A DNA stretch of 64,000 nt from Henricia sp. BOLD:AAB3569 (lineage: Eukaryota > Echinodermata > Asteroidea > Spinulosida > Echinasteridae): the NCBI GenBank assembly GCA_037783545.1, contig JBBELK010001254.1:1-64000 (forward strand), given 5' to 3'. Below, in pieces: positions 36,101 to 64,000 of this stretch. The notes beneath the pieces were generated by a model, which worked only from the letters and a program-made list of their open reading frames with translations, did no database searches and was not told the origin of the DNA. Each line of letters begins with the position of its first letter. Position 1 is the first letter of the stretch. A program made the translations under genes and the position numbers.

Positions 36101-39100
36101 AATTGACAGATTTTCGCTGGGAAATGACGGAGAAATTTCAGAGTTTAGGGAAAACGGAGCTCGGCTGCGTGGTTATTCCCCTAACCGTGGCTGTTGGGAC
36201 ACCCTGCCCATGCGCTGGTGTACATTTATACGGCCGTTGACTCACCCCAGATTGTGACGGGAATTAGGTCAAAGTGTGTCCCAAATGCCGGCAAATTTTG
36301 AAATCAAGGAATTTTCCAACCAACTTCAAATTTTGCATGCTCCAAACTGTATATATTCCGCACTTGTCATGCACAATTGACAGATTTTCGCTGGGAAATG
36401 ACGGAGAAATTTCAGAGTTTAGGGAAAACGGAGCTCGGCTGCGTGGTTATTCCCCTAACCGTGGCTGTTGGGACACCCTGCGCATGCGCCGCGCTGGTGT
36501 ACATTTGTACGGCCGTTGACTCACCCCAGATTGTGACGGGAATTAGGTCAAAGTGTGTCCCAAATGCCGGCAAATTTGGAAATCAAGGAATTTTCCAACC
36601 AACTTCAAATTTTGCATGCTCCAAACTGTATATATTCCGCACTTGTCATGCAAAATTGACAGATTTTCGCTGGGAAATGACGGAGAAATTTCAGAGTTTA
36701 GGGAAAACGGAGCTCGGCTGCGTGGTTATTCCCCTAACCGTGGCTGTTGGGACACCCTGCGCATGCGCCGCGCTGGTGTACATTTGTACGGCCGTTGACT
36801 CACCCCAGATTGTGACGGGAATTAGGTCAAAGTGTGTCCCAAATGCCGGCAAATTTGGAAATCAAGGAATTTTCCAACCAACTTCAAATTTTGCATGCTC
36901 CAAACTGTATATATTCCGCACTTGTCATGCAAAATTGACAGATTTTCGCTGGGAAATGACGGAGAAATTTCAGAGTTTAGGGAAAACGGAGTTCGGCTGC
37001 GTGGTTATTCCCCTAACCGTGGCTGTTGGGACACCCTGCGCCGCGCTGGTGTACATTTGTACGGCCGTTGACTCACCCCAGATTGTGACGGGAATTAGGT
37101 CAAAGTGTGTCCCAAATGCCGGCAAATTTGGAAATCAAGGAATTTTCCAACCAACTTCAAATTTTGCATGCTCCAAACTGTATATATTCCGCACTTGTCA
37201 TGCAAAATTGACAGATTTTCGCTTGGAAATGACGGAGAAATTTCAGAGTTTAGGGAAAACGGAGCTCGGTTGCGTGGTTATTCCCCTAACCGTGGCTGTT
37301 GGGACACCCTGCGCATGCGCTGGTGTACATTTGTACGGCCGTTGACTCACCCCAGATTGTGACGGGAATTAGGTCAAAGTGTGTCCCAAATGCCGGCAAA
37401 TTTGGAAATCAAGGAATTTTCCAACCAACTTCAAATTTTGCATGCTCCAAACTGTATATATTCCGCACTTGTCATGCAAAATTGACAGATTTTCGCTATG
37501 AAATGACGGAGAAATTTCAGAGTTTAGGGAAAACGGAGCTCGGCTGCGTGGTTATTCCCCTAACCGTGGCTGTTGGGACACCCTGCGCCGCGCTGGTGTA
37601 CATTTCTACGGCCGTTGACTCACCCCAGATTGTGACGGGAATTAGGTCAAAGTGTGTCCCAAATGCCGGCAAATTTGGAAATCAAGGAATTTTCCAACCA
37701 ACTTCAAATTTTGCATGCTCCAAACTGTATATATTCCGCACTTGTCATGCAAAATTGACAGATTTTCGCGGGGAAATGACGGAGAAATTTCAGAGTTTAG
37801 GGAAAACGGAGCTCGGCTGCGTGGTTATTCCCCTAACCGTGGCTGTTGGGACACCCTGCGCCGCGCTGGTGGACATTTCTACGGCCGTTGACTCACCCCA
37901 GATTGTGACGGGAATTAGGTCAAAGTGTGTCCCAAATGCCGGCAAATTTGGAAATCAAGGAATGTTCCAACCAACTTCAAATTTTGCATGCTCCAAACTG
38001 TATATATTCCGCACTTGTCATGCAAAATTGACAGATTTTCGCTGGGAAATGACGGAGAAATTTCAGAGTTTAGGGAAAACGGAGCTCGGCTGCGTGGTTA
38101 TTCCCCTAACCGTGGCTGTTGGGACACCCTGCGCATGCGCCGCGCTGGTGTACATTTGTACGGCCGTTGACTCACCCCAGATTGTGACGGGAATTAGGTC
38201 AAAGTGTGTCCCAAATGCCGGCAAATTTGGAAATCAAGGAATTTTCCAACCAACTTCAAATTTTGCATGCTCCAAACTGTATATATTCCGCACTTGTCAT
38301 GCAAAATTGACAGATTTCCGCTGGGAAATGACGGAGAAATTTCAGAGTTTAGGGAAAACGGAGCTCGGCTGCGTGGTTATTCCCCTAACCGTGGCTGTTG
38401 GGACACCCTGCGCCGCGCTGGTGTACATTTGTACGGCCGTTGACTCACCCCAGATTGTGACGGGAATTAGGTCAAAGTGTGTCCCAAATGCCGGCAAATT
38501 TTGAAGTCAAGGAATTTTCCAACCAACTTCAAATTTTGCATGCTCCAAACTGTATATATTCCGCACTTGTCATGCAAAATTGACAGATTTTCGCTGGGAA
38601 ATGACGGATAAATTTCAGAGTTTAGGGAAAACGGAGCTCGGCTGCGTGGTTATTCCCCTAACCGTGGCTGTTGGGACACCCTGCCCATGCGCTGGTGTAC
38701 ATTTATACGGCCGTTGACTCACCCCAGATTGTGACGGGAATTAGGTCAAAGTGTGTCCCAAATGCCGGCAAATTTTGAAATCAAGGAATTTTCCAACCAA
38801 CTTCAAATTTTGCATGCTCCAAACTGTATATATTCCGCACTTGTCATGCAAAATTGACAGATTTTCGCTGGGAAATGACGGAGAAATTTCAGAGTTTAGC
38901 GAAAACGGAGCTCGGCTGCGTGGTTATTCCCCTAACCGTGGCTGTTGGGACACCCTGCGCATGCGCCGCGCTGGTGTACATTTGTACGGCCGTTGACTCA
39001 CCCCAGATTGTGACGGGAATTAGGTCAAAGTGTGTCCCAAATGCCGGCAAATTTGGAAATCAAGGAATTTTCCAACCAACTTCAAATTTTGCATGCTCCA

Positions 39101-41227
39101 AACTGTATATATTCCGCACTTGTCATGCAAAATTGACAGATTTTCGCTGGGAAATGACGGAGAAATTTCAGAGTTTAGGGAAAACGGAGCTCGGCTGCGT
39201 GGTTATTCCCCTAACCGTGGCTGTTGGGACACCCTGCGCATGCGCCGCGCTGGTGTACATTTGTACGGCCGTTGACTCACCCCAGATTGTGACGGGAATT
39301 AGGTCAAAGTGTGTCCCAAATGCCGGCAAATTTGGAAATCAAGGAATTTTCCAACCAACTTCAAATTTTGCATGCTCCAAACTGTATATATTCCGCACTT
39401 GTCATGCAAAATTGACAGATTTTCGCTGGGAAATGACGGAGAAATTTCAGAGTTTAGGGAAAACGGAGCTCGGCTGCGTGGTTATTCCCCTAACCGTGGC
39501 TGTTGGGACACCCTGCGCATGCGCTGGTGTACATTTGTACGGCCGTTGACTCACCCCAGATTGTGACGGGAATTAGGTCAAAGTGTGTCCCAAATGCCGG
39601 CAAATTTGGAAATCAAGGAATTTTCCAACCAACTTCAAATTTTGCATGCTCCAAACTGTATATATTCCGCACTTGTCATGCAAAATTGACAGATTTTCGC
39701 TGAGAAATGACGGAGAAATTTCAGAGTTTAGGGAAAACGGAGTTCGGCTGCGTGGTTATTCCCCTAACCGTGGCTGTTGGGACACCCTGCGCCGCGCTGG
39801 TGTACATTTGTACGGCCGTTGACTCACCCCAGATTGTGACGGGAATTAGGTCAAAGTGTGTCCCAAATGCCGGCAAATTTGGAAATCAAGGAATTTTCCA
39901 ACCAACTTCAAATTTTGCATGCTCCAAACTGTATATATTCCGCACTTGTCATGCAAAATTGACAGATTTTCGCTTGGAAATGACGGAGAAATTTCAGAGT
40001 TTAGGGAAAACGGAGCTCGGCTGCGTGGTTATTCCCCTAACCGTGGCTGTTGGGACACCCTGCGCATGCGCTGGTGTACATTTGTACGGCCGTTGACTCA
40101 CCCCAGATTGTGACGGGAATTAGGTCAAAGTGTGTCCCAAATGCCGGCAAATTTGGAAATCAAGGAATTTTCCAACCAACTTCAAATTTTGCATGCTCCA
40201 AACTGTATATATTCCGCACTTGTCATGCAAAATTGACAGATTTTCGCTGGGAAATGACGGAGAAATTTCAGAGTTTAGGGAAAACGGAGCTCGGCTGCGT
40301 GGTTATTCCCCTAACCGTGGCTGTTGGGACACCCTGCGCCGCGCTGGTGTACATTTCTACGGCCGTTGACTCACCCCAGATTGTGACGGGAATTAGGTCA
40401 AAGTGTGTCCCAAATGCCGGCAAATTTGGAAATCAAGGAATTTTCCAACCAACTTCAAATTTTGCATGCTCCAAACTGTATATATTCCGCACTTGTCATG
40501 CAAAATTGACAGATTTTCGCTGGGAAATGACGGAGAAATTTCAGAGTTTAGGGAAAACGGAGCTCGGCTGCGTGGTTATTCCCCTAACCGTGGCTGTTGG
40601 GACACCCTGCGCCGCGCTGGTGTACATTTCTACGGCCGTTGACTCACCCCAGATTGTGACGGGAATTAGGTCAAAGTGTGTCCCAAATGCCGGCAAATTT
40701 GGAAATCAAGGAATGTTCCAACCAACTTCAAATTTTGCATGCTCCAAACTGTATATATTCCGCACTTGTCATGCAAAATTGACAGATTTTCGCTGGGAAA
40801 TGACGGAGAAATTTCAGAGTTTAGGGAAAACGGAGCTCGGCTGCGTGGTTATTCCCCTAACCGTGGCTGTTGGGACACCCTGCGCATGCGCCGCGCTGGT
40901 GTACATTTGTACGGCCGTTGACTCACCCCAGATTGTGACGGGAATTAGGTCAAAGTGTGTCCCAAATGCCGGCAAATTTGGAAATCAAGGAATTTTCCAA
41001 CCAACTTCAAATTTTGCATGCTCCAAACTGTATATATTCCGCACTTGTCATGCAAAATTGACAGATTTTCGCTGGGAAATGACGGAGAAATTTCAAAGTT
41101 TAGGGAAAACGGAGCTCGGCTGCGTGGTTATTCCCCTAACCGTGGCTGTTGGGACACCCTGCGCCGCGCTGGTGTACATTTGTACGGCCGTTGACTCACC
41201 CCAGATTGTGACGGGAATTAGGTCAAA
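27200..41227 (+). repeat. Large array block B (about 51 monomers), duplicate of 6309-18957
   Basis: Second copy of the block at 6309-18957, about five monomers longer. Extra local duplications include a four-monomer, 1,099 bp repeat (29950-31048 and 31049 onward) and a two-monomer repeat (34906-35452 and 35453-35999). Unlike the first copy it has almost no private single-base indels; its odd-length monomers, such as those starting at 28573 and 31874, largely share their changes with partners in the first block. Confidence 0.88.
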
Positions 41228-48000: not shown

Positions 48001-50308
48001 GTGGTTATTCCCCTAACCGTGGCTGTTGGGACACCCTGCGCATGCGCTGGTGTACATTTATACGGCCGTTGACTCACCCCAGATTGTGACGGGAATTAGG
48101 TCAAAGTGTGTCCCAAATGCCGGCAAATTTTGAAATCAAGGAATTTTCCAACCAACTTCAAATTTTGCATGCTCCAAACTGTATATATTCCGCACTTGTC
48201 ATGCAAAATTGACAGATTTTGGCTGGGAAATGACGGAGAAATTTCAGAGTTTAGGGAAAACGGAGCTCGGCTGCGTGGTTATTCCCCCAACCGTGGCTGT
48301 TGGGACACCCTGCGCATGCGCCGCGCTGGTGTACATTTGTACGGCTGTTGACTCACCCCAGATTGTGACGGGAATTAGGTCAAAGTGTGTCCCAAATGCC
48401 GGCAAATTTGGAAATCAAGGAATTTTCCAACCAACTTCAAATTTTGCATGCTCCAAACTGTATATATTCCGCACTTGTCATGCAAAATTGACAGATTTTG
48501 GCTGGGAAATGACGGAGAAATTTCAGAGTTTAGGGAAAACGGAGCTCGGCTGCGTGGTTATTCCCCCAACCGTGGCTGTTGGGACACCCTGCGCATGCGC
48601 CGCGCTGGTGTACATTTGTACGGCTGTTGACTCACCCCAGATTGTGACGGGAATTAGGTCAAAGTGTGTCCCAAATGCCGGCAAATTTGGAAATCAAGGA
48701 ATTTTCCAACCAACTTCAAATTTTGCATGCTCCAAACTGTATATATTCCGCACTTGTCATGCAAAATTGACATATTTTCGCTGGGAAATGACGGAGAAAT
48801 TTCAGAGTTTAGGGAAAACGGAGCTCGGCTGCGTGGTTATTCCCCTAACCGTGGCTGTTGGGACACCCTGCGCCGCGCTGGTGTACATTTGTACGGCCGT
48901 TGACTCACCCCAGATTGTGACGGGAATTAGGTCAAAGTGTGTCCCAAATGCCGGCAAATTTGGAAATCAAGGAATTTTCCAACCAACTTCAAATTTTGCG
49001 TGCTCCAAACTGTATATATTCCGCACTTGTCATGCAAAATTGACAGATTTTCGCTGGGAAATGACGGAGAAATTTCAGAGTTTAGGGAAAACGGAGCTCG
49101 GCTGCGTGGTTATTCCCCTAACCGTGGCTGTTGGGACACCCTGCGCCGCGCTGGTGTACATTTGTACGGCCGTTGACTCACCCCAGATTGTGACGGGAAT
49201 TAAGTCAAAGTGTGTCCCAAATGCCGGCAAATTTGGAAATCAAGGAATTTTCCAACCAACTTCAAATTTTGCATGCTCCAAACTGTATATATTCCGCACT
49301 TGTCATGCAAAATTGACAGATTTTCGCTGGGAAATTACGGAGAAATTTCAGAGTTTAGGGAAAACGGAGCTCGGCTGCGTGGTTATTCCCCTAACCGTGG
49401 CTGTTGGGACACCCTGCGCATGCGCCGCGCTGGTGTACATTTGTACGGCCGTTGACTCACCCCAGATTGTGACGGGAATTAGGTCAAAGTGTGTCCCAAA
49501 TGCCGGCAAATTTGGAAATCAAGGAATTTTCCAACCAACTTCAAATTTTGCATGCTCCAAACTGTATATATTCCGCACTTGTCATGCAAAATTGACAGAT
49601 TTTCGCTGGGAAATGACGGAGAAATTTCAGAGTTTAGGGAAAACGGAGCTCGGCTGCGTGGTTATTCCCCTAACCGTGGCTGTTGGGACACCCTGCGCCG
49701 CGCTGGTGTACATTTGTACGGCCGTTGACTCACCCCAGATTGTGACGGGAATTAGGTCAAAGTGTGTCCCAAATGCCGGCAAATTTGGAAATCAAGGAAT
49801 TTTCCAACCAACTTCAAATTTTGCATGCTCCAAACTGTATATATTCCGCACTTGTCATCCAAAATTGACAGATTTTCGCTGGGAAATGACGGAGAAATTT
49901 CAGAGTTTAGGGAAAACGGAGCTCGGCTGCGTGGTTATTCCCATAACCGTGGCTGTTGGGACACCCTGCGCCGCGCTGGTGTACATTTGTACGGCCGTTG
50001 ACTCACCCCAGATTGTGACGGGAATTAGGTCAAAGTGTGTCCCAAATGCCGGCAAATTTGGAAATCAAGGAATTTTCCAACCAACTTCAAATTTTGCATG
50101 CTCCAAACTGTATATATTCCGCACTTGTCATGCAAAATTGACAGATTTTCGCTGGGAAATGACGGAGAAATTTCAGAGTTTAGGGAAAACGGAGCTCGGC
50201 TGCGTGGTTATTCCCCTAACCGTGGCTGTTGGGACACCCTGCGCATGCGCTGGTGTACATTTCTACGGCCGTTGACTCACCCCATATTGTGACGGGAATT
50301 AGGTCAAA
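45083..50308 (+). repeat. Continuation of the higher-order series with changed period
   Basis: The marker pair GCGTGCTCC then ATTAAGTCAAAG recurs at 46460/46733 and 48937/49210, with spacing of 2,208 bp from the previous pair and then 2,477 bp. The five monomers 46460-47831 match 48937-50308 (both 1,372 bp), including a TCATCCAAAA variant at 47285 and 49762. Two adjacent monomers at 48106 and 48385 share three rare changes (TTTTGGCTGG, TTCCCCCAAC, TACGGCTGTT), a recent single-monomer duplication. Confidence 0.85.
47558..47831 (+). repeat. Representative 274 bp monomer
   Basis: Here the variable tract reads GCGCATGCGCTGG. Relative to the 279 bp form it lacks five bases between GCGC repeats. 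The length is not a multiple of three, so each such monomer shifts the open satellite frame. Many are followed by a monomer with AAATTTTGAA instead of AAATTTGGAA (here at 47832), a linked marker also seen at 9058, 11806, 14284, 29950, 31049 and 36000. Confidence 0.93.
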
Positions 50309-51219
50309 GTGTGTCCCAAATGCCGGCAAATTTTGAAATCAAGGAATTTTCCAACCAACTTCAAATTTTGCATGCTCCAAACTGTATATATTCCGCACTT
50401 GTCATGCAAAATTGACAGATTTTCGCTGGGAAATGACGGAGAAATTTCAGAGTTTAGGGAAAACGGAGCTCGGCTGCGTGGTTATTCCCCTAACCGTGGC
50501 TGTTGGGACACCCTGCGCATGCGCCGCGCTGGTGTACATTTGTACGGCCGTTGACTCACCCCAGATTGTGACGGGAATTAGGTCAAAGTGTGTCCCAAAT
50601 GCCGGCAAATTTGGAAATCAAGGAATTTTCCAACCAACTTCAAATTTTGCATGCTCCAAACTGTATATATTCCGCACTTGTCATGCAAAATTGACAGATT
50701 TTCGCTGGGAAATGACGGAGAAATTTCAGAGTTTAGGGAAAACGGAGCTCGGCTGCGTGGTTATTCCCCTAACCGTGGCTGTTGGGACACCCTGCGCATG
50801 CGCCGCGCTGGTGTACATTTGAACGGCCGTTGACTCACCCCAGATTGTGACGGGAATTAGGTCAAAGTGTGTCCCAAATGCCGGCAAATTTGGAAATCAA
50901 GGAATTTTCCAACCAACTTCAAATTTTGCATGCTCCAAACCTGTATATATTCCGCACTTGTCATGCAAAATTGACAGATTTTCGCTGGGAAATGACGGAG
51001 AAATTTCAGAGTTTAGGGAAAACGGAGCTCGGCTGCGTGGTTATTCCCCTAACCGTGGCTGTTGGGACACCCTGCGCCGCGCTGGTGTACATTTGTACGG
51101 CCGTTGACTCACCCCAGATTGTGACGGGAATTAGGTCAAAGTGTGTCCCAAATGCCCGCAAATTTGGAAATCAAGGAATTTTCCAACCAACTTCACATTT
51201 GGCATGCTCCAAACTGTAT

Positions 51220-51226
51220 ATATTCC
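51220..51226 (+). repeat. Left target-site duplication (ATATTCC) of LINE copy 1
   Basis: Seven bases matching 51660-51666 on the other side of the insert. The same pair flanks the other copies: 53318-53324/53758-53764, 54856-54862/55296-55302, 56128-56134/56568-56574 and 57121-57127/57561-57567. The first A on the right could equally belong to the element's A-rich tail. Confidence 0.85.
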
Positions 51227-51659
51227 ATTCAATTTCAATGGGTATGAGGACAGCCTTCATATTTGTAAACTAGAATCCCTGGCCGATAGGAGATTAAGCC
51301 ATTGCATTAAATTTGCCAAAACACTTGGTAAAAACATTCGCACTTCTTCCTTGTTGCCTCCAACCAGATTTGAGAACCATGGAAGACGTCTTAGAAACAG
51401 TCACACAATTTCTCAGCTTTCTGTCAGAACCACACGGTTTAAGAAAAGTCCCATTCCCTTTTTTATTGATATTCTGAATAAGTAAATTTCAGCACTTTTA
51501 AACTTTGAATAGGGATTACCCTTGTCAGGTTATTATTATTATGTTAGGATGTGATGTGGTTATATGGTGTCTTATCTTCTGATGTATTATTTCTGTAACA
51601 TACATGTAATTTGGCCGTTTGGCCACGAGGTGTATGAAATAAAATACCAATACTAAACA
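51227..51659 (+). mobile_element. LINE 3' fragment, copy 1 (433 bp, 5'-truncated)
   Basis: This is non-satellite sequence inserted after monomer base 86. It encodes the C-terminal end of a LINE reverse-transcriptase polyprotein, then has a 174 bp 3' UTR with a short ATT run (about 51530-51542), an AATAAA at 51638-51643 and a short A-rich end. ATATTCC flanks it on both sides (51220-51226 and 51660-51666), a 7 bp target-site duplication typical of target-primed reverse transcription. A full element of this class is several kilobases, so only the 3' tip was inserted. No reverse-transcriptase catalytic motif remains. A Jockey/CR1-like clade is likely but not settled by so short a piece. Confidence 0.88.
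51228..51485 (+). pseudogene. C-terminal 85 residues of a LINE reverse-transcriptase polyprotein, copy 1
   Basis: The frame starts inside the inserted DNA and ends at TAA 51483-51485. Visible motifs are GYEDSLHICKLESLADRR near the start, then a conserved C..FAK stretch (CIKFAKTLGKN), RFENHGRRLR, and a basic, proline-bearing end (KKSPIPFFIDILNK). This L-ESL-DRR...C-FAK pattern is familiar from the extreme C-terminus of animal LINE ORF2 proteins, downstream of the polymerase domain. The endonuclease and polymerase domains are absent, so the fragment cannot act as an enzyme. By chance it is in frame with the satellite before it, giving a 114-codon open frame from a GTG at 51141. It has no start codon of its own. 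Confidence 0.82.
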
Positions 51660-51666
51660 ATATTCC
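51660..51666 (+). repeat. Right target-site duplication (ATATTCC) of LINE copy 1
   Basis: Directly follows the A-rich LINE end, after which the satellite resumes at the next base of the interrupted monomer. The 719 bp monomer equals a 279 bp monomer plus 433 bp of LINE and 7 bp of duplicated target. Confidence 0.85.
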
Positions 51667-53324
51667 GCACTTGTCATGCAAAATTGACAGATTTTCGCTG
51701 GGAAATGACGGAGAAATTTCAGAGTTTAGGGAAAACGGAGATCGGCTGCGTGGTTATTCCCCTAACCGTGGCTGTTGGGACACCCTGCGCATGCTCCGCG
51801 CTGGTGTACATTTGTACGGCCGTTGACTCACCCCAGATTGTGACGGGAATTAGGTCAAAGTGTGTCCCAAATGCCGGCAAATTTGGAAATCAAGGAATTT
51901 TCCAACCAACTTCAAATTTTGCATGCTCCAAACTGTATATATTCCGCACTTGTCATGCAAAATTGACAGATTTTCGCTGGGAAATGACGGAGAAATTTCA
52001 GAGATTAGGGAAAACGGAGCTCGGCTGCGTGGTTATTCCCCTAACCGTGGCTGTTGGGACACCCTGCGCCGCGCTGGTGTACATTTCTACGGCCGTTGAC
52101 TCACCCCAGATTGTGACGGGAATTAGGTCAAAGTGTGTCCCAAATGCCGGCAAATTTGGTAAATCAAGGAATTTTCCAACCAACTTCAAATTTTGCATGC
52201 TCCAAACTGTATATATTCCGCACTTGTCACGCAAAATTGACAGATTTTCGCTGGGAAATGACGGAGAAATTTCAGAGTTTAGGGAAAACGGAGCTCGGCT
52301 GCGTGGTTATTCCCCTAACCGTGGCTGTTGGGACACCCTGCGCCGCGCTGGTGTTCATTTGTACGGCCGTTGACTCACCCCAGATTGTGACGGGAATTAG
52401 GTCAAAGTGTGTCCCAAATGCCGGCAAATTTGGAAATCAAGGAATTTTCCAACCAACTTCAAATTTTGCATGCTCCAAACTGTATATATTCCGCACTTGT
52501 CATGCAAAATTGACAGATTTTCGCTGGGAAATGACGGAGAAATTTCAGAGTTTAGGGAAAACGGAGCTCGGCTGCGTGGTTATTCCCCTAACCGTAGCTG
52601 TTGGGACACCCTGCGCATGCGCCGCGCTGGTGTACATTTGTACGGCCGTTGACTCACCCCAGATTGTGACGGGAATTAGGTCAAAGTGTGTCCCAAATGC
52701 CGGCAAATTTGGAAATCAAGGAATTTTCCAACCAACTTCAAATTTTGCATGCTCCAAACTGTATATATTCCGCACTTGTCATGCAAAATTGACAGATTTT
52801 CGCTGGGAAATGACGGAGAAATTTCAGAGTTTAGGGAAAACGGAGCTCGGCTGCGTGGTTATTCCCCTAACCGTGGCTGTTGGGACACCCTGCGCATGCG
52901 CCGCGCTGGTGTACATTTGAACGGCCGTTGACTCACCCCAGATTGTGACGGGAATTAGGTCAAAGTGTGTCCCAAATGCCGGCAAATTTGGAAATCAAGG
53001 AATTTTCCAACCAACTTCAAATTTTGCATGCTCCAAACCTGTATATATTCCGCACTTGTCATGCAAAATTGACAGATTTTCGCTGGGAAATGACGGAGAA
53101 ATTTCAGAGTTTAGGGAAAACGGAGCTCGGCTGCGTGGTTATTCCCCTAACCGTGGCTGTTGGGACACCCTGCGCCGCGCTGGTGTACATTTGTACGGCC
53201 GTTGACTCACCCCAGATTGTGACGGGAATTAGGTCAAAGTGTGTCCCAAATGCCCGCAAATTTGGAAATCAAGGAATTTTCCAACCAACTTCACATTTGG
53301 CATGCTCCAAACTGTATATATTCC
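51660..53324 (+). repeat. Satellite array between LINE copies 1 and 2
   Basis: The right part of the split monomer, five whole monomers (starts 51860, 52133, 52407, 52686, 52965) and the left part of the next split one. The base after the GAGCTC position is altered to GAGATCGG at about 51738. This change also marks the right-hand half-monomer after every other LINE copy. Confidence 0.95.
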
Positions 53325-53757
53325 ATTCAATTTCAATGGGTATGAGGACAGCCTTCATATTTGTAAACTAGAATCCCTGGCCGATAGGAGATTAAGCCAT
53401 TGCATTAAATTTGCCAAAACACTTGGTAAAAACATTCGCACTTCTTCCTTGTTGCCTCCAACCAGATTTGAGAACCATGGAAGACGTCTTAGAAACAGTC
53501 ACACAATTTCTCAGCTTTCTGTCAGAACCACACGGTTTAAGAAAAGTCCCATTCCCTTTTTTATTGATATTCTGAATAAGTAAATTTCAGCACTTTTAAA
53601 CTTTGAATAGGGATTACCCTTGTCAGGTTATTATTATTATGTTAGGATGTGATGTGGTTATATGGTGTCTTATCTTCTGATGTATTATTTCTGTAACATA
53701 CATGTAATTTGGCCGTTTGGCCACGAGGTGTATGAAATAAAATACCAATACTAAACA
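53325..53757 (+). mobile_element. LINE 3' fragment, copy 2
   Basis: Read by eye it is identical to copy 1, including the end ACTAAACAA that separates copies 1 and 2 from copies 3 to 5 (ACTAAAAAA). Same target-site duplication and monomer phase. AATAAA at 53736-53741. Carried here by duplication of the 2,098 bp unit, not by a new insertion. Confidence 0.88.
53326..53583 (+). pseudogene. LINE reverse-transcriptase C-terminal remnant, copy 2
   Basis: 85 residues and a TAA stop, same protein as at 51228. No start codon or polymerase motifs. The upstream half-monomer carries ATGCCCGCAAA and TTCACATTTGG, the same two changes as in front of copy 1. Confidence 0.82.
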
Positions 53758-54862
53758 ATATTCCGCACTTGTCATGCAAAATTGACAGATTTTCGCTGGG
53801 AAATGACGGAGAAATTTCAGAGTTTAGGGAAAACGGAGATCGGCTGCGTGGTTATTCCCCTAACCGTGGCTGTTGGGACACCCTGCGCATGCTCCGCGCT
53901 GGTGTACATTTGTACGGCCGTTGACTCACCCCAGATTGTGACGGGAATTAGGTCAAAGTGTGTCCCAAATGCCGGCAAATTTGGAAATCAAGGAATTTTC
54001 CAACCAACTTCAAATTTTGCATGCTCCAAACTGTATATATTCCGCACTTGTCATGCAAAATTGACAGATTTTCGCTGGGAAATGACGGAGAAATTTCAGA
54101 GTTTAGGGAAAACGGAGCTCGGCTGCGTGGTTATTCCCCTAACCGTGGCTGTTGGGACACCCTGCGCCGCGCTGGTGTACATTTCTACGGCCGTTGACTC
54201 ACCCCAGATTGTGACGGGAATTAGGTCAAAGTGTGTCCCAAATGCCGGCAAATTTGGAAATCAAGGAATTTTCCAACCAACTTCAAATTTTGCATGCTCC
54301 AAACTGTATATATTCCGCACTTGTCACGCAAAATTGACAGATTTTCGCTGGGAAATGACGGAGAAATTTCAGAGTTTAGGGAAAACGGAGCTCGGCTGCG
54401 TGGTTATTCCCCTAACCGTGGCTGTTGGGACACCCTGCGCCGCGCTGGTGTTCATTTGTACGGCCGTTGACTCACCCCAGATTGTGACGGGAATTAGGTC
54501 AAAGTGTGTCCCAAATGCCGGCAAATTTGGAAATCAAGGAATTTTCCAACCAACTTCAAATTTTGCATGCTCCAAACTGTATATATTCCGCACTTGTCAT
54601 GCAAAATTGACAGATTTTCGCTGGGAAATGACGGAGAAATTTCAGAGTTTAGGGAAAACGGAGCTCGGCTGCGTGGTTATTCCCCTAACCGTGGCTGTTG
54701 GGACACCCTGCGCCGCGCTGGTGTACATTTCTACGGCCGTTGACTCACCCCAGATTGTGACGGGAATTAGGTCAAAGTGTGTCCCAAATGCCCGCAAATT
54801 TGGAAATCAAGGAATTTTCCAACCAACTTCACATTTTGCATGCTCCAAACTGTATATATTCC
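53758..54862 (+). repeat. Satellite array between LINE copies 2 and 3
   Basis: Half-monomer, three whole monomers (53958, 54231, 54504) and the left part of the next split monomer. The distance between LINE copies shortens from 2,098 to 1,538 bp, that is, by two monomers. Confidence 0.95.
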
Positions 54863-55295
54863 ATTCAATTTCAATGGGTATGAGGACAGCCTTCATATTT
54901 GTAAACTAGAATCCCTGGCCGATAGGAGATTAAGCCATTGCATTAAATTTGCCAAAACACTTGGTAAAAACATTCGCACTTCTTCCTTGTTGCCTCCAAC
55001 CAGATTTGAGAACCATGGAAGACGTCTTAGAAACAGTCACACAATTTCTCAGCTTTCTGTCAGAACCACACGGTTTAAGAAAAGTCCCATTCCCTTTTTT
55101 ATTGATATTCTGAATAAGTAAATTTCAGCACTTTTCAACTTTGAATAGGGATTACCCTTGTCAGGTTATTATTATTATGTTAGGATGTGATGTGGTTATA
55201 TGGTGTCTTATCTTCTGATGTATTATTTCTGTAACATACATGTAATTTGGTCGTTTGGCCACGAGGTGTATGAAATAAAATACCAATACTAAAAA
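54863..55295 (+). mobile_element. LINE 3' fragment, copy 3
   Basis: Differs from copy 1 at three visible bases: C for A at 55136 (shared with copy 5), GGTCG for GGCCG in the 3' UTR (private), and ACTAAAAAA at the end (shared with copies 4 and 5). AATAAA at 55274-55279. Same junctions and target-site duplication. Confidence 0.87.
54864..55121 (+). pseudogene. LINE reverse-transcriptase C-terminal remnant, copy 3
   Basis: Same 85 residues as copy 1. The upstream half-monomer has ATGCCCGCAAA and TTCACATTTTG, one base closer to the ordinary monomer than that before copies 1 and 2. Confidence 0.8.
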
Positions 55296-56134
55296 ATATT
55301 CCGCACTTGTCATGCAAAATTGACAGATTTTCGCTGGGAAATGACGGAGAAATTTCAGAGTTTAGGGAAAACGGAGATCGGCTGCGTGGTTATTCCCCTA
55401 ACCGTGGCTGTTGGGACACCCTGCGCATGCGCCGCGTTGGTGTACATTTGTACGGCCGTTGACTCACCCCAGATTGTGACGGGAATTAGGTCAAAGTGTG
55501 TCCCAAATGCCGGCAAATTTGGAAATCAAGGAATTTTCCAACTAACTTCAAATTTTGCATGCTCCAAACTGTATATATTCCGCACTTGTCATGCAAAATT
55601 GAAAGATTTTCGCTGGGAAATGACGGAGAAATTTCAGAGATTAGGGAAAACGGAGATCGGCTGCGTGGTTATTCCCCTAACCGTGGCTGTTGGGACACCC
55701 TGCGCATGCGCCGCGCTGGTGTACATTTCTACGGCCGTTGACTCACCCGAGATTGTGACGGGAATTAGGTCAAAGTGTGTCCCAAATGCCGGCAAATTTG
55801 GAAATCAAGGAATTTTCCAACCAACTTCAAATTTTGCATGCTCCAAACTGTATATATTCCGCACTTGTCATGCAAAATTGACAGATTTTCGCTGGGAAAT
55901 GACGGAGAAATTTCAGAGTTTAGGGAAAACGGAGCTCGGCTGCGTGGTTATTCCCCTAACCGTGGCTGTTGGGACACCCTGCGCATGCGCTGGTGTACAT
56001 TTCTACGGCCGTTGACTCACCCCAGATTGTGACGGGAATTAGGTCAAAGTGTGTCCCAAATGCCGGCAAATTTTGAAATCAAGGAATTGTCCAACCAACT
56101 TCAAATTTTGCATGCTCCAAACTGTATATATTCC
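55296..56134 (+). repeat. Satellite array between LINE copies 3 and 4
   Basis: Half-monomer, two whole monomers (55496, 55775) and the left part of the split monomer at 56049. The monomer at 55496 repeats GAGATCGG, otherwise seen mainly just after the LINE, so it may derive from a half-monomer of that type rebuilt without the LINE. Confidence 0.94.
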
Positions 56135-56567
56135 ATTCAATTTCAATGGGTATGAGGACTGCCTTCATATTTGTAAACTAGAATCCCTGGCCGATAGGAG
56201 ATTAAGCCATTGCATTAAATTTGCCAAAACACTTGGTAAAAACATTCGCACTTCTTCCTTGTTGCCTCCAACCAGATTTGAGAACCATGGAAGACGTCTT
56301 AGAAACAGTCACACAATTTCTCAGCTTTCTGTCAGAACCACACGGTTTAAGAAAAGTCCCATTCCCTTTTTTATTGATATTCTGAATAAGTAAATTTCAG
56401 CACTTTTAAACTTTGAATAGGGATTACCCTTGTCAGGTTATTATTATTATGTTATGATGTGATGTGGTTATATGGTGTCTTATCTTCTGATGTATTATTT
56501 CTGTAACATACATGTAATTTGGCCGTTTGGCCACGAGGTGTATGAAATAAAATACCAATACTAAAAA
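56135..56567 (+). mobile_element. LINE 3' fragment, copy 4
   Basis: Two private changes: GGACTGCC near the left end and GTTATGATG in the 3' UTR. Its end (ACTAAAAAA) groups with copies 3 and 5, but base 56408 is A as in copies 1 and 2. The satellite to its left differs in kind from that of all the other copies. AATAAA at 56546-56551. Confidence 0.87.
56136..56393 (+). pseudogene. LINE reverse-transcriptase C-terminal remnant, copy 4
   Basis: 85 residues with one replacement (GYEDCLHICK instead of GYEDSLHICK). Same stop as the other copies and no catalytic motifs. Confidence 0.8.
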
Positions 56568-57127
56568 ATATTCCGCACTTGTCATGCAAAATTGACAGAT
56601 TTTCGCTGGGAAATGACGGAGAAATTTCAGAGTTTAGGGAAAACGGAGATCGGCTGCGTGGTTATTCCCCTAACCGTGGCTGTTGGGACACCCTGCGCAT
56701 GCGCCGCGCTGGTGTACATTTCTACGGCCGTTGACTCACCCCAGATTGTGACGGGAATTAGGTCAAAGTGTGTCCCAAATGCCGGCAAATTTGGAAATCA
56801 AGGAATTTTCCAACCAACTTCAAATTTTTGCATGCTCCAAACTGTATATATTCCGCACTTGTCATGCAAAATTGACAGATTTTCGCTGGGAAATGACGGA
56901 GAAATTTCAGAGTTTAGGGAAAACGGAGCTCGGCTGCGTGGTTATTCCCCTAACCGTGGCTGTTGGGACACCCTGCGCCGCGCTGGTGTACATTTGTACG
57001 GCCGTTGACTCACCCCAGATTGTGACGGGAATTAGGTCAAAGTGTGTCCCAAATGCCCGCAAATTTGGAAATCAAGGAATTTTCCAACCAACTTCACATT
57101 TTGCATGCTCCAAACTGTATATATTCC
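56568..57127 (+). repeat. Satellite array between LINE copies 4 and 5
   Basis: The shortest spacing: half-monomer, one whole monomer (56768, with one extra T near 56826) and the left part of the split monomer at 57042. LINE copies 4 and 5 are only 993 bp apart. Confidence 0.94.
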
Positions 57128-57560
57128 ATTCAATTTCAATGGGTATGAGGACAGCCTTCATATTTGTAAACTAGAATCCCTGGCCGATAGGAGATTAAGC
57201 CATTGCATTAAATTTGCCAAAACACTTGGTAAAAACATTCGCACTTCTTCCTTGTTGCCTCCAACCAGATTTGAGAACCATGGAAGACGTCTTAGAAACA
57301 GTCACACAATTTCTCAGCTTTCTGTCAGAACCACACGGTTTAAGAAAAGTCCCATTCCCTTTTTTATTGATATTCTGAATAAGTAAATTTCAGCACTTTT
57401 CAACTTTGAATAGGGATTACCCTTGTCAGGTTATTATTATTATGTTAGGATGTGATGTGGTTATATGGTGTCTTATCTTCTGATGTATTATTTCTGTAAC
57501 ATACATGTAATTTGGCCGTTTGGCCACGAGGTGTATGAAATAAAATACCAATACTAAAAA
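57128..57560 (+). mobile_element. LINE 3' fragment, copy 5
   Basis: Matches copy 3 except for that copy's private 3' UTR change. It has C at 57401 and ends ACTAAAAAA. AATAAA at 57539-57544. It is the last LINE copy in the window; plain satellite follows to the end. Confidence 0.88.
57129..57386 (+). pseudogene. LINE reverse-transcriptase C-terminal remnant, copy 5
   Basis: Same 85-residue remnant and stop. Upstream marks ATGCCCGCAAA and TTCACATTTTG agree with copy 3. Confidence 0.8.
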
Positions 57561-60500
57561 ATATTCCGCACTTGTCATGCAAAATTGACAGATTTTCGCT
57601 GGGAAATGACGGAGAAATTTCAGAGTTTAGGGAAAACGGAGATCGGCTGCGTGGTTATTCCCCTAACCGTGGCTGTTGGGACACCCTGCGCATGCGCCGC
57701 GCTGGTGTACATTTGTACGGCCGTTGACTCACCCCAGATTGTGACGGGAATTAGGTCAAAGTGTGTCCCAAATGCCGGCAAATTTGGAAATCAAGGAATT
57801 TTCCAACCAACTTCAAATTTTGCATGCTCCAAACTGTATATATTCCGCACTTGTCATGCAAAATTGACAGATTTTCGCTGGGAAATGACGGAGAAATTTC
57901 AGAGTTTAGGGAAAACGGAGCTCGGCTGCGTGGTTATTCCCCTAACCGTGGCTGTTGGGACACCCTGCGCCGCACTGGTGTACATTTGTACGGCCGTTGA
58001 CTCAACCCAGATTGTGACGGGAATTAGGTCAAAGTGTGTCCCAAATGCCGGCAAATTTGGAAATCAAGGAATTTTCCAACCAACTTCAAATTTTGCATGC
58101 TCCAAACTGTATATATTCCGCACTTGTCATGCAAAATTGACAGATTTTCGCTGGGAAATGACGGAGAAATTTCAGAGTTTAGGGAAAACGGAGCTCGGCT
58201 GCGTGGTTATTCCCCTAACCGTGGCTGTTGGGACACCCTGCGCCGCGCTGGTGTACATTTGTACGGCCGTTGACTCAACCCAGATTGTGACGGGATTTAG
58301 GTCAAAGTGTGTCCCAAATGCCGGCAAATTTGGAAATCAAGGAATTTTCCAACCAACTTCAAATTTTGCATGCTCCAAACTGTATATATTCCGCACTTGT
58401 CATGCAAAATTGACAGATTTTCGCTGGGAAATTACGGAGAAATTTCAGAGTTTAGGGAAAACGGAGCTCGGCTGCGTGGTTATTCCCCTAACCGTGGCTG
58501 TTGGGACACCCTGCGCATGCGCCTCGCTGGTGTACATTTGTACGGCCGTTGACTCACCCCAGATTGTGACGGGAATTAGGTCAAAGTGTGTCCCAAATGC
58601 TGGCAAATTTGGAAATCAAGGAATTTTCCAACCAACTTCAAATTGTGCATGCTCCAAACTGTATATATTCCGCACTTGTCATGCAAAATTGACAGATTTT
58701 CGCTGGGAAATGACGGAGAAATTTCAGAGTTTAGGGAAAACGGAGCTCGGCTGCGTGGTTATTCCCCTAACCGTGGCTGTTGGGACACCCTGCGCCGCGC
58801 TGGTGTACATTTGTACGGCCGTTGACTCACCCCAGATTGTGACGGGAATTAGGTCAAAGTGTGTCCCAAATGCCGGCAAATTTGGAAATCAAGGAATTTT
58901 CCAACCAACTTCAAATTTTGCATGCTCCAAACTGTATATATTCCGCACTTGTCATGCAAAATTGACAGATTTTCGCTGGGAAATGACGGAGAAATTTCAG
59001 AGTTTAGGGAAAACGGAGCTCGGCTGCGTGGTTATTCCCCTAACCGTGGCTGTTGGGACACCCTGCGCCGCGCTGGTGTACATTTGTACGGCCGTTGACT
59101 CACCCCAGATTGTGACGGGAATTAGGTCAAAGTGTGTCCCAAATGCCGGCAAATTTGGAAATCAAGGAATTTTCCAACCAACTTCAAATTTTGCATGCTC
59201 CAAACTGTATATATTCCGCACTTGTCATGCAAAATTGACAGATTTCCGCTGGGAAATGACGGAGAAATTTCAGAGTTTAGGGAAAACGGAGCTCGGCTGC
59301 GTGGTTATTCCCCTAACCGTGGCTGTTGGGACACCCTGCGCATGCGCCGCGCTGGTGTACATTTGTACGGCCGTTGACTCACCCCAGATTGTGACGGGAA
59401 TTAGGTCAAAGTGTGTCCCAAATGCCGGCAAATTTGGAAATCAAGAAATTTTCCAACCAACTTCAAATTTTGCATGCTCCAAACTGTATATATTCCGCAC
59501 TTGTCATGCAAAATTGACAGATTTTCGCTGGGAAATGACGGAGAAATTTCAGAGTTTAGGGAAAACGGAGCTCGGCTGCGTGGTTATTCCCCTAACCGTG
59601 GCTGTTGGGACACCCTGCGCCGCGCTGGTGTACATTTGTACGGCCGTTGACTCACCCCAGATTGTGACGGGAATTAGGTCAAAGTGTGTCCCAAATGCCG
59701 GCAAATTTGGAAATCAAGGAATTTTCCAACCAACTTCAAATTTTGCATGCTCCAAACTGTATATATTCCGCACTTGTCATGCAAAATTGACAGATTTTCG
59801 CTGGGAAATGACGGAGAAATTTCAGAGTTTAGGGAAAACGGAGCTCGGCTGCGTGGTTATTCCCCTAACCGTGGCTGTTGGGACACCCTGCGCATGCGCC
59901 TCGCTGGTGTACATTTGTACGGCCGTTGACTCACCCCAGATTGTGACGGGAATTAGGTCAAAGTGTGTCCCAAATGCTGGCAAATTTGGAAATCAAGGAA
60001 TTTTCCAACCAACTTCAAATTGTGCATGCTCCAAACTGTATATATTCCGCACTTGTCATGCAAAATTGACAGATTTTCGCTGGGAAATGACGGAGAAATT
60101 TCAGAGTTTAGGGAAAACGGAGCTCGGCTGCGTGGTTATTCCCCTAACCGTGGCTGTTGGGACACCCTGCGCCGCGCTGGTGTACATTTGTACGGCCGTT
60201 GACTCATCCCAGATTGTGACGGGAATTAGGTCAAAGTGTGTCCCAAATGCCGGCAAATTTGGAAATCAAGGAATTTTCCAACCAACTTCAAATTTTGCAT
60301 GCTCCAAACTGTATATATTCCGCACTTGTCATGCAAAATTGACAGATTTTCGCTGGGAAATGACGGAGAAATTTCAGAGTTTAGGGAAAACGGAGCTCGG
60401 CTGCGTGGTTATTCCCCTAACCGTGGCTGTTGGGACACCCTGCGCATGCGCCGCGCTGGTGTACATTTGTACGGCCGTTGACTCACCCCAGATTGTGACG

Positions 60501-62169
60501 GGAATTAGGTCAAAGTGTGTCCCAAATGCCGGCAAATTTGGAAATCAAGGAATTTTCCAACCAACTTCAAATTTTGCATGCTCCAAACTGTATATATTCC
60601 GCACTTGTCATGCAAAATTGACAGATTTTCGCTGAGAAATGACGGAGAAATTTCAGAGTTTAGGGAAAACGGAGCTCGGCTGCGTGGTTATTCCCCTAAC
60701 CGTGGCTGTTGGGACACCCTGCGCATGCGCCGCGCTGGTGTACATTTGTACGGCCGTTGACTCACCCCAGATTGTGACGGGAATTAGGTCAAAGTGTGTC
60801 CCAAATGCCGGCAAATTTGGAAATCAAGAAATTTTCCAACCAACTTCAAATTTTGCATGCTCCAAACTGTATATATTCCGCACTTGTCATGCAAAATTGA
60901 CAGGTTTCGCTGGGAAATGACGGAGAAATTTCAGAGTTTAGGGAAAACGGAGCTCGGCTGCGTGGTTATTCCCCTAACCGTGGCTGTTGGGACACCCTGC
61001 GCATGCGCCGCGCTGGTGTACATTTGTACGGCCGTTGACTCACCCCAGATTGTGACGGGAATTAGGTCAAAGTGTGTCCCAAATGCCGGCAAATTTGGAA
61101 ATCAAGAAATTTTCCAACCAACTTCAAATTTTGCATGCTCCAAACTGTATATATTCCGCACTTGTCATGCAAAATTGACAGATTTTCGCTGGGAAATGAC
61201 GGAGAAATTTCAGAGTTTAGGGAAAACGGAGCTCGGCTGCGTGGTTATTCCCCTAACCGTGGCTGTTGGGACACCCTGCGCCGCGCTGGTGTACATTTGT
61301 ACGGCCGTTGACTCACCCCAGATTGTGACGGGAATTAGGTCAAAGTGTGTCCCAAATGCTGGCAAATTTGGAAATCAAGGAATTTTCCAACCAACTTCAA
61401 ATTGTGCATGCTCCAAACTGTATATATTCCGCACTTGTCATGCAAAATTGACAGATTTTCGCTGGGAAATGACGGAGAAATTTCAGAGTTTAGGGAAAAC
61501 GGAGCTCGGCTGCGTGGTTATTCCCCTAACCGTGGCTGTTGGGACACCCTGCGCCGCGCTGGTGTACATTTGTACGGCCGTTGACTCATCCCAGATTGTG
61601 ACGGGAATTAGGTCAAAGTGTGTCCCAAATGCCGGCAAATTTGGAAATCAAGGAATTTTCCAACCAACTTCAAATTTTGCATGCTCCAAACTGTATATAT
61701 TCCGCACTTGTCATGCAAAATTGACAGATTTTCGCTGGGAAATGACGGAGAAATTTCAGAGTTTAGGGAAAACGGAGCTCGGCTGCGTGGTTATTCCCCT
61801 AACCGTGGCTGTTGGGACACCCTGCGCCGCGCTGGTGTACATTTGTACGGCCGTTGACTCACCCCAGATTGTGACGGGAATTAGGTCAAAGTGTGTCCCA
61901 AATGCCGGCAAATTTGGAAATCAAGGAATTTTCCAACCAACTTCAAATTTTGCATGCTCCAAACTGTATATATTCCGCACTTGTCATGCAAAATTGACAG
62001 ATTTTCGCTGGGAAATGACGGAGAAATTTCAGAGTTTAGGGAAAACGGAGCTCGGCTGCGTGGTTATTCCCCTAACCGTGGCTGTTGGGACACCCTGCGC
62101 ATGCGCCGCGCTGGTGTACATTTGTACGGCCGTTGACTCACCCCAGATTGTGACGGGAATTAGGTCAAA

Positions 62170-62448
62170 GTGTGTCCCAAATGCCGGCAAATTTGGAAAT
62201 CAAGGAATTTTCCAACCAACTTCAAATTTTGCATGCTCCAAACTGTATATATTCCGCACTTGTCATGCAAAATTGACAGATTTTCGCTGGGAAATGACGG
62301 AGAAATTTCAGAGTTTAGGGAAAACGGAGCTCGGCTGCGTGGTTATTCCCCTAACCGTGGCTGTTGGGACACCCTGCGCATGCGCCGCGCTGGTGTACAT
62401 TTGTACGGCCGTTGACTCACCCCAGATTGTGACGGGAATTAGGTCAAA
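62170..62448 (+). repeat. Representative 279 bp monomer
   Basis: The longest common class. Its tract TGCGCATGCGCCGCGC starts at 62375, and the first 11 bases alternate strictly between pyrimidine and purine. Removing six bases (ATGCGC) gives the 273 bp class. Removing five (CCGCG or an equivalent register) gives the 274 bp class. Both changes are flanked by GCGC, so slippage or microhomology deletion from this longer form is the simplest reading. Confidence 0.92.
62375..62390 (+). other. Alternating GC tract, the monomer length hotspot (example)
   Basis: TGCGCATGCGCCGCGC, present in every 279 bp monomer. It includes the 10-base palindrome GCGCATGCGC and an 11-base alternating pyrimidine-purine run, a sequence type known to favour left-handed Z-DNA. 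The regular length differences between monomers fall here. Structure in the cell is not shown by the sequence. Confidence 0.7.
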
Positions 62449-63546
62449 GTGTGTCCCAAATGCCGGCAAATTTGGAAATCAAGGAATTTTCCAACCAACT
62501 TCAAATGTTGCATGCTCCAAACTGTATATATTCCGCACTTGTCATGCAAAACTGACAGATTTTCGCTGGGAAATGACGGAGAAATTTCAGAGTTTAGGGA
62601 AAACGGAGCTCGGCTGCGTGGTTATTCCCCTAACCGTGGCTGTTGGGACACCCTGCGCCGCGCTGGTGTACATTTGTACGGCCGTTGACTCACCCCAGAT
62701 TGTGACGGGAATTAGGTCAAAGTGTGTCCCAAATGCCGGCAAATTTGGAAATCAAGGAATTTTCCAACCAACTTCAAATTTTGCATGCTCCAAACTGTAT
62801 ATATTCCGCACTTGTCATGCAAAATTGACAGATTTTCGCTGGGAAATGACGGAGAAATTTCAGAGTTTAGGGAAAACGGAGCTCGGCTGCGTGGTTATTC
62901 CCCTAACCGTGGCTGTTGGGACACCCTGCGCCGCGCTGGTGTACATTTGTACGGCCGTTGACTCACCCCCGATTGTGACGGGAATTAGGTCAAAGTGTGT
63001 CCCAAATGCCGGCAAATTTGGAAATCAAGGAATTTTCCAACCAATTTCAAATTGTGCATGCTCCAAACTGTATATATTCCGCACTTGTCATGCAAAATTG
63101 ACAGATTTTCGCTGGGAAATGACGGAGAAATTTCAGAGTTTAGGGAAAACGGAGCTCGGCTGCGTGGTTATTCCCCTAACCGTGGCTGTTGGGACACCCT
63201 GCGCATGCGCCTCGCTGGTGTACATTTGTACGGCCGTTGACTCACCCCAGATTGTGACGGGAATTAGGTCAAAGTGTGTCCCAAATGCTGGCAAATTTGG
63301 AAATCAAGGAATTTTCCAACCAACTTCAAATTGTGCATGCTCCAAACTGTATATATTCCGCACTTGTCATGCAAAATTGACAGATTTTCGCTGGGAAATG
63401 ACGGAGAAATTTCAGAGTTTAGGGAAAACGGAGCTCGGCTGCGTGGTTATTCCCCTAACCGTGGCTGTTGGGACACCCTGCGCCGCGCTGGTGTACATTT
63501 GTACGGCCGTTGACTCACCCCAGATTGTGACGGGAATTAGGTCAAA

Positions 63547-63819
63547 GTGTGTCCCAAATGCCGGCAAATTTGGAAATCAAGGAATTTTCCAACCAACTTC
63601 AAATTTTGCATGCTCCAAACTGTATATATTCCGCACTTGTCATGCAAAATTGACAGATTTTCGCTGGGAAATGACGGAGAAATTTCAGAGTTTAGGGAAA
63701 ACGGAGCTCGGCTGCGTGGTTATTCCCCTAACCGTGGCTGTTGGGACACCCTGCGCCGCGCTGGTGTACATTTGTACGGCCGTTGACTCACCCCAGATTG
63801 TGACGGGAATTAGGTCAAA
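63547..63819 (+). repeat. Representative 273 bp monomer
   Basis: A clean example of the commonest length class. The variable tract reads TGCGCCGCGC (63752-63761). Hand count: 129 G+C of 273 and 14 CpG. It carries GGAATTTTCC at 63581-63590, GCATGC at 63608-63613, an inverted repeat TGTCA/TGACA at 63638-63655, GAGCTC at 63704-63709, a single TTAGGG at 63692-63697, TGACTCA at 63784-63790 and AGGTCA at 63812-63817. Because 273 is a multiple of three and one forward frame has no stop, arrays of this form stay open across monomers. Confidence 0.95.
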
Positions 63820-64000
63820 GTGTGTCCCAAATGCCGGCAAATTTGGAAATCAAGGAATTTTCCAACCAACTTCAAATTTTGCATGCTCCAAACTGTATAT
63901 ATTCCGCACTTGTCATGCAAAATTGACAGATTTTCGCTGGGAAATGACGGAGAAATTTCAGAGTTTAGGGAAAACGGAGCTCGGCTGCGTGGTTATTCCC

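Follow-up and report, generated by a model that had tools for sequence, protein, structure and literature searches.

Probable copying of a single LINE-like insertion together with its flanks in a Henricia satellite array

Introduction

When the same fragment of a transposable element is found several times at one position of a satellite monomer, did it insert repeatedly, or was one insertion copied along with the array? A 64,000-nt stretch of the Henricia sp. genome (contig JBBELK010001254.1, positions 1 to 64,000; referred to here as the window) raises this question, as its 273/279-bp satellite carries five near-identical inserts. The answer that we consider very likely is that a 5′-truncated tail of a non-LTR retrotransposon inserted a single time and was then copied with its satellite flanks by homologous exchange.

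Copying of transposable elements with a satellite is a known process, and the present locus is a well-resolved new example of it. In Arabidopsis centromeres, ATHILA elements lie within the 178-bp satellite and have been duplicated with the arrays. The likeness is that one insertion and its target duplication are copied through array turnover; the difference is that ATHILA are LTR elements in a 178-bp satellite, whereas here a 433-bp 5′-truncated non-LTR-like tail sits in a 273/279-bp satellite. In rye, the subtelomeric tandem repeats pSc200 and pSc250 and the transposable elements joined to them have been proposed to have expanded together with the involvement of recombination, but there several element families are concerned and solo-LTRs are enriched beside the arrays, while here there is one insertion inside the array (PMC4857426). 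A review describes transposable elements as contributors of sequence to tandem repeats and mentions that such elements insert into satellite arrays and may hit a single target site repeatedly (PMC12628747); in contrast to such TE-derived satellites, the Henricia satellite is not built from the element, which is present in five of 224 monomers. No direct precedent was found in the available parts of three further articles (PMC7004042, PMC11062924, PMC11620609).

Such a case is valuable because the insert, which probably has a single origin, tags a near-identical array. In plain satellite, separate duplications and exchanges are hard to read, and five tagged copies make them readable. The principle is already established; a resolved case helps to date and measure array turnover.

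Five inserts in one satellite array

The satellite occupies the entire window, reaching both ends:

1 to 64000, + strand: 273/279-bp satellite array (repeat finder and monomer split)

Splitting the window gave 224 monomers; 82 bases at its start and 102 at its end were excluded. The 279-bp type carries an additional 6-bp TGCGCA, and the 274-bp type carries TGCGCA together with a 5-bp loss. The three types are intermixed along the array in no regular order (for example 51660-51938 and 50114-50387). Divergence averages 1.36% across all pairs of monomers. By both repeat finder and monomer split, the only breaks within the 64,000 nt that exceed a monomer variant are the inserts:

51227 to 51659, + strand: insert copy 1, 433 bp, 5′-truncated non-LTR-like tail (boundaries and alignment)
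53325 to 53757, + strand: insert copy 2, identical to copy 1 (boundaries and alignment)
54863 to 55295, + strand: insert copy 3 (boundaries and alignment)
56135 to 56567, + strand: insert copy 4, whose left flank is another monomer type (boundaries, alignment and flank comparison)
57128 to 57560, + strand: insert copy 5 (boundaries and alignment)
51220 to 51226, + strand: left ATATTCC of the target duplication of copy 1, likewise present in the other four copies
51660 to 51666, + strand: right ATATTCC of the target duplication of copy 1, likewise present in the other four copies

All five are exactly 433 bp long, lie at the identical monomer base between ...TATATATTCC and ATATTCCGCAC, begin at the same 5′ end and have the target-site duplication ATATTCC on each side. 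The initial annotation had described them in these terms, and had put the differences among them at no more than about four bases and their start-to-start spacing at 2098, 1538, 1272 and 993 bp; the first description is borne out to the base, the pairwise differences are indeed 0 to 4, and the spacings are exactly as given. The ten pairwise comparisons yield 0, 3, 3, 2, 3, 3, 2, 4, 1 and 3 differences (mean 0.55%), confined to five of 433 columns (26, 274, 321, 389 and 432). These sites pair copy 1 with copy 2 and copy 3 with copy 5, set copy 4 apart, and leave the tree unrooted. The steps between inserts equal 6, 4, 3 and 2 monomers plus 440 bp (insert and target duplication), which fits exchange in monomer register. 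In the phase of the initial annotation the enlarged unit measures 719 bp in four copies and 720 bp in copy 4; in our own phase there are five enlarged monomer intervals, of 713-714 bp, and no others.

Flank variants and the origin of the inserts

The satellite bases next to the inserts bear directly on their origin. In copy 1 the host monomers are:

50947 to 51219, + strand: host monomer on the left side of copy 1; carries two variants present in 4 of the 224 monomers
51660 to 51938, + strand: host monomer on the right side of copy 1; carries GGAGATCGGC (A at 51741), a variant present in 7 of the 224 monomers

The two left variants, ATGCCCGC and TTCACATTT, occur in exactly the four monomers that lie left of copies 1, 2, 3 and 5. 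The GGAGATCGGC variant, an A located 82 bp to the right of the insert, occurs in the right neighbours of all five inserts and in two further monomers with no insert immediately before them, 55575 within the cluster and the distant 11053. The copies thus have both element ends and flanking satellite variants in common, as duplication after insertion predicts, with the exception that copy 4 lacks the left ones; the rare variants have hitchhiked with the insert. Taken together, the common truncation point, the rare flank variants and the tandem duplication described below that contains copies 1 and 2 support the earlier proposal of one insertion followed by copying.

The inserts differ from one another by 0.55% on average, their right monomers by 0.65% and their left monomers by 1.17%, against 1.36% for array pairs. 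The low values for the inserts and right flanks indicate that these are younger than an average pair of array monomers. For the left flanks taken together this is not clear, probably on account of copy 4.

The monomer at 55575-55853 is free of an insert, lies within the cluster and bears GGAGATCGGC; it may be an exchange product that lost the insert.

Tandem duplication and the mosaic copy

The history that we propose begins with the entry of the truncated tail into one monomer, once, at ATATTCC, which could have occurred through target-primed reverse transcription. Homologous exchange in monomer register would then have copied the insert together with flank of varying length until there were five. 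The clearest step is a tandem duplication with a period of about 2.1 kb that yielded copies 1 and 2:

50335 to 54708, + strand: tandem duplication, period about 2.1 kb, with copies 1 and 2 inside (uncut alignment and exact repeats)

When aligned uncut, 50335-52611 and 52433-54708 differ by three substitutions and one single-base gap; their exact core is 1505 bp, and outside the two blocks the differences turn dense on both sides. The two blocks overlap, each exceeding the 2098-bp lag in length, just as a tandem duplication predicts. The monomer at 54310, which directly precedes the left monomer of copy 3, is identical to that at 52213.

Copy 4 differs from the others on its left side:

55854 to 56127, + strand: monomer to the left of copy 4, of the 274-bp type, with one difference from the insert-free monomer 47637

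It lacks both ATGCCCGC and TTCACATTT, and, counting leftward from the insert, it differs from copy 5 at bases 31, 46, 61 and 70; its bases at 31, 61 and 70 are those of monomer 47637. Copy 4 is a mosaic: from base 31 onward its left flank belongs to another monomer type. Either an exchange or conversion tract ended close to the insert, by which its left flank would have been swapped for that of another monomer type, or copy 4 would have retained the original, older flank and the other copies would be derived.

The insert might instead have spread by gene conversion with short flanks. This is rather doubtful, though it retains some weight: the left match of copy 4 is short (the first difference is at base 31) and on the right it shares a single rare variant, 82 bp away, but copies 1 and 2 lie within the tandem duplication of about 2.1 kb and rare variants are common to the copies across several monomers. 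The initial annotation held that an enlarged 719-bp monomer had been copied by unequal crossover. The insert was indeed copied with satellite flanks, but the unit was not copied intact five times, the left flank of copy 4 being of another monomer type. The tandem duplication supports unequal crossover for copies 1 and 2, while for copies 3, 4 and 5 crossover and gene conversion are indistinguishable. Within copying by homologous exchange, we infer unequal crossover in preference to break-induced replication or conversion.

Nature of the insert

The features of the insert that could speak to its source are, in copy 1:

51228 to 51485, + strand: open coding remnant, 85 codons plus TAA (open reading frame; 84 aa kept as P0001)
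51638 to 51643, + strand: AATAAA, present once in each insert on the + strand and nowhere else on it

Starting at base 2 of the insert, the frame runs open for 85 codons to TAA, after which 174 bp remain. Among mononucleotide shuffles of the insert, 323 of 5000 have an open run of at least 84 codons in some frame, so the length of the frame is by itself weak evidence. AATAAA begins 22 bases ahead of the insert end, and the tail is very short (AAACA or AAAAA); where a LINE insertion is expected to end in a polyadenylation signal or an A-rich tail, it is the signal that is found. G+C is 0.356 in insert copy 1 and 0.470 in the window's first 50 kb, and CpG observed/expected is 0.44 and 0.92, respectively, which suggests that the origin of the insert differs from that of the satellite. 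Judged by its anatomy, the insert is likely a LINE: it is flanked by a target duplication, has AATAAA near its 3′ end, and carries a reading frame that is already open at the truncated 5′ end. We also take the 84-aa remnant to be reminiscent of the C-terminus of a CR1/L2/Jockey-type protein.

A processed host-gene transcript would have left a similar trace, and the later copying would be unchanged. The open frame, the 3′ untranslated part and the AATAAA 22 bases from the end all fit a polyadenylated mRNA, and database searches returned no LINE match: the 84-aa remnant had no match in Pfam or PDB, no relative among plasmids and phages, and no confirmed match among viral contigs (0 of 21 pattern matches) or prokaryote genomes (0 of 133), and its peptide motifs had no match in the literature. 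Against this stand the presumed CR1/L2/Jockey resemblance and an insert end of AAACA or AAAAA in place of a long poly(A). We therefore regard a host transcript as unlikely and continue to treat the insert as a probable LINE tail.

As the initial annotation noted, AATAAA and the coding remnant were carried along with the copies, with one + strand AATAAA per insert. The five AATAAA and five ATTAAA on the + strand and the five AATAAA on the − strand all lie inside inserts; in the satellite outside them, across 64 kb, there is no AATAAA on either strand and no ATTAAA on the + strand. With the insertion the array did gain AATAAA as a side effect. One could go further and view the 719-bp composite monomer as an incipient satellite repeat in five copies, whose AATAAA, the only ones in an array that is in part open over long stretches, could change the ends of satellite transcripts and thereby local packaging; we consider this very improbable.

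Assembly error and repeated insertion

The main open risk to the single-insertion reading is a fault in the assembly, above all for copies 1 and 2. In a near-identical array, mis-joined reads or merged haplotypes could multiply one or two true inserts, and the identity of inserts 1 and 2 and the mere four differences across their duplication are what such an error would produce. Copies 3, 4 and 5, on the other hand, differ from the others both inside the insert and in the flanks, and the four spacings are all different, which makes an artefact quite improbable.

Site-specific non-LTR elements exist, and a site-selective LINE that inserted several times independently at one monomer base could account for five of five inserts at the identical base and for the differing left flank of copy 4, but the identical 5′ end in all five, the rare variants common to four of five left and all five right flanks, the absence of any exact insert 20-mer outside the inserts on both strands of the whole window, and the tight clustering (five insert-bearing monomers within 16 of 224, as tight in 12 of 200,000 random draws) leave independent insertions hardly plausible. 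A single insertion that was later copied remains our preferred reading.

Array turnover and higher-order structure

Copying in this array extends beyond the inserts. Exact repeats of up to 1517 bp are found elsewhere in it at many lags. One of 1517 bp (16731-18247 and 39001-40517) and one of 1496 bp (9638-11133 and 31633-33128) each join places about 22 kb apart, which shows long-range copying inside the array. For a number of monomers the closest match is about 74-90 monomers away (the commonest lag is −74, in 8 of 215 insert-free monomers), so that here, too, long-range copying is evident.

The initial annotation had proposed that the transposon was absorbed into a higher-order satellite unit. 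The array lends this no support: among the 215 insert-free monomers, mean identity stays at 0.974-0.978 across lags 1 to 40 with no period, the inserts are irregularly spaced at 6, 4, 3 and 2 monomers in place of a regular multi-monomer period, and five of the 224 monomers carry one. Within the window, the composite unit is a variant of low copy number confined to one region and no established satellite module.

Searches for other features in and around the cluster gave little. No tRNA was detected in the 64-kb window, and Rfam returned for 50000-58500 a single match, far under its curated score. A 27-base satellite word had no match in viral contigs, satellite 20- to 21-mers had none in full-text literature, and no report of a fitting 273/279-bp satellite was found in the literature as judged by titles and the openings of abstracts.

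Satellite reading frame and a CENP-B-like motif

Long stop-free frames run through the satellite, 1025 codons in 57558-60632 and 1071 codons in 60788-64000. Since 273 and 279 are multiples of three, one satellite frame stays open from monomer to monomer. A coding satellite was considered and rejected: of 5000 shuffled 273-mers, 196 have one or more of their six frames open; variants follow a pattern without selection (24 of 104 distinct variants synonymous, 0.231 against 0.236 expected, with the 6-bp indel columns excluded); and the 274-bp monomers break the frame. The open frame looks like chance. Translation of three monomers produced seven Pfam matches with E no higher than 1. A single one of them, the Med14 domain PF25065, scores above its cut-off (23.5 bits versus 22; E 5.7e-5), with no single stretch passing; we take it as probable chance summed across repeated monomers.

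A CENP-B box was likewise rejected, what we take to be its essential pattern having no match on either strand. The word TTTTCGCTGGGAAATGACGGAG is conserved and loosely CENP-B box-like, with 175 exact copies in the window (one within 51660-51938), and a looser CENP-B-like pattern, devised after viewing the sequence, has 193 matches.
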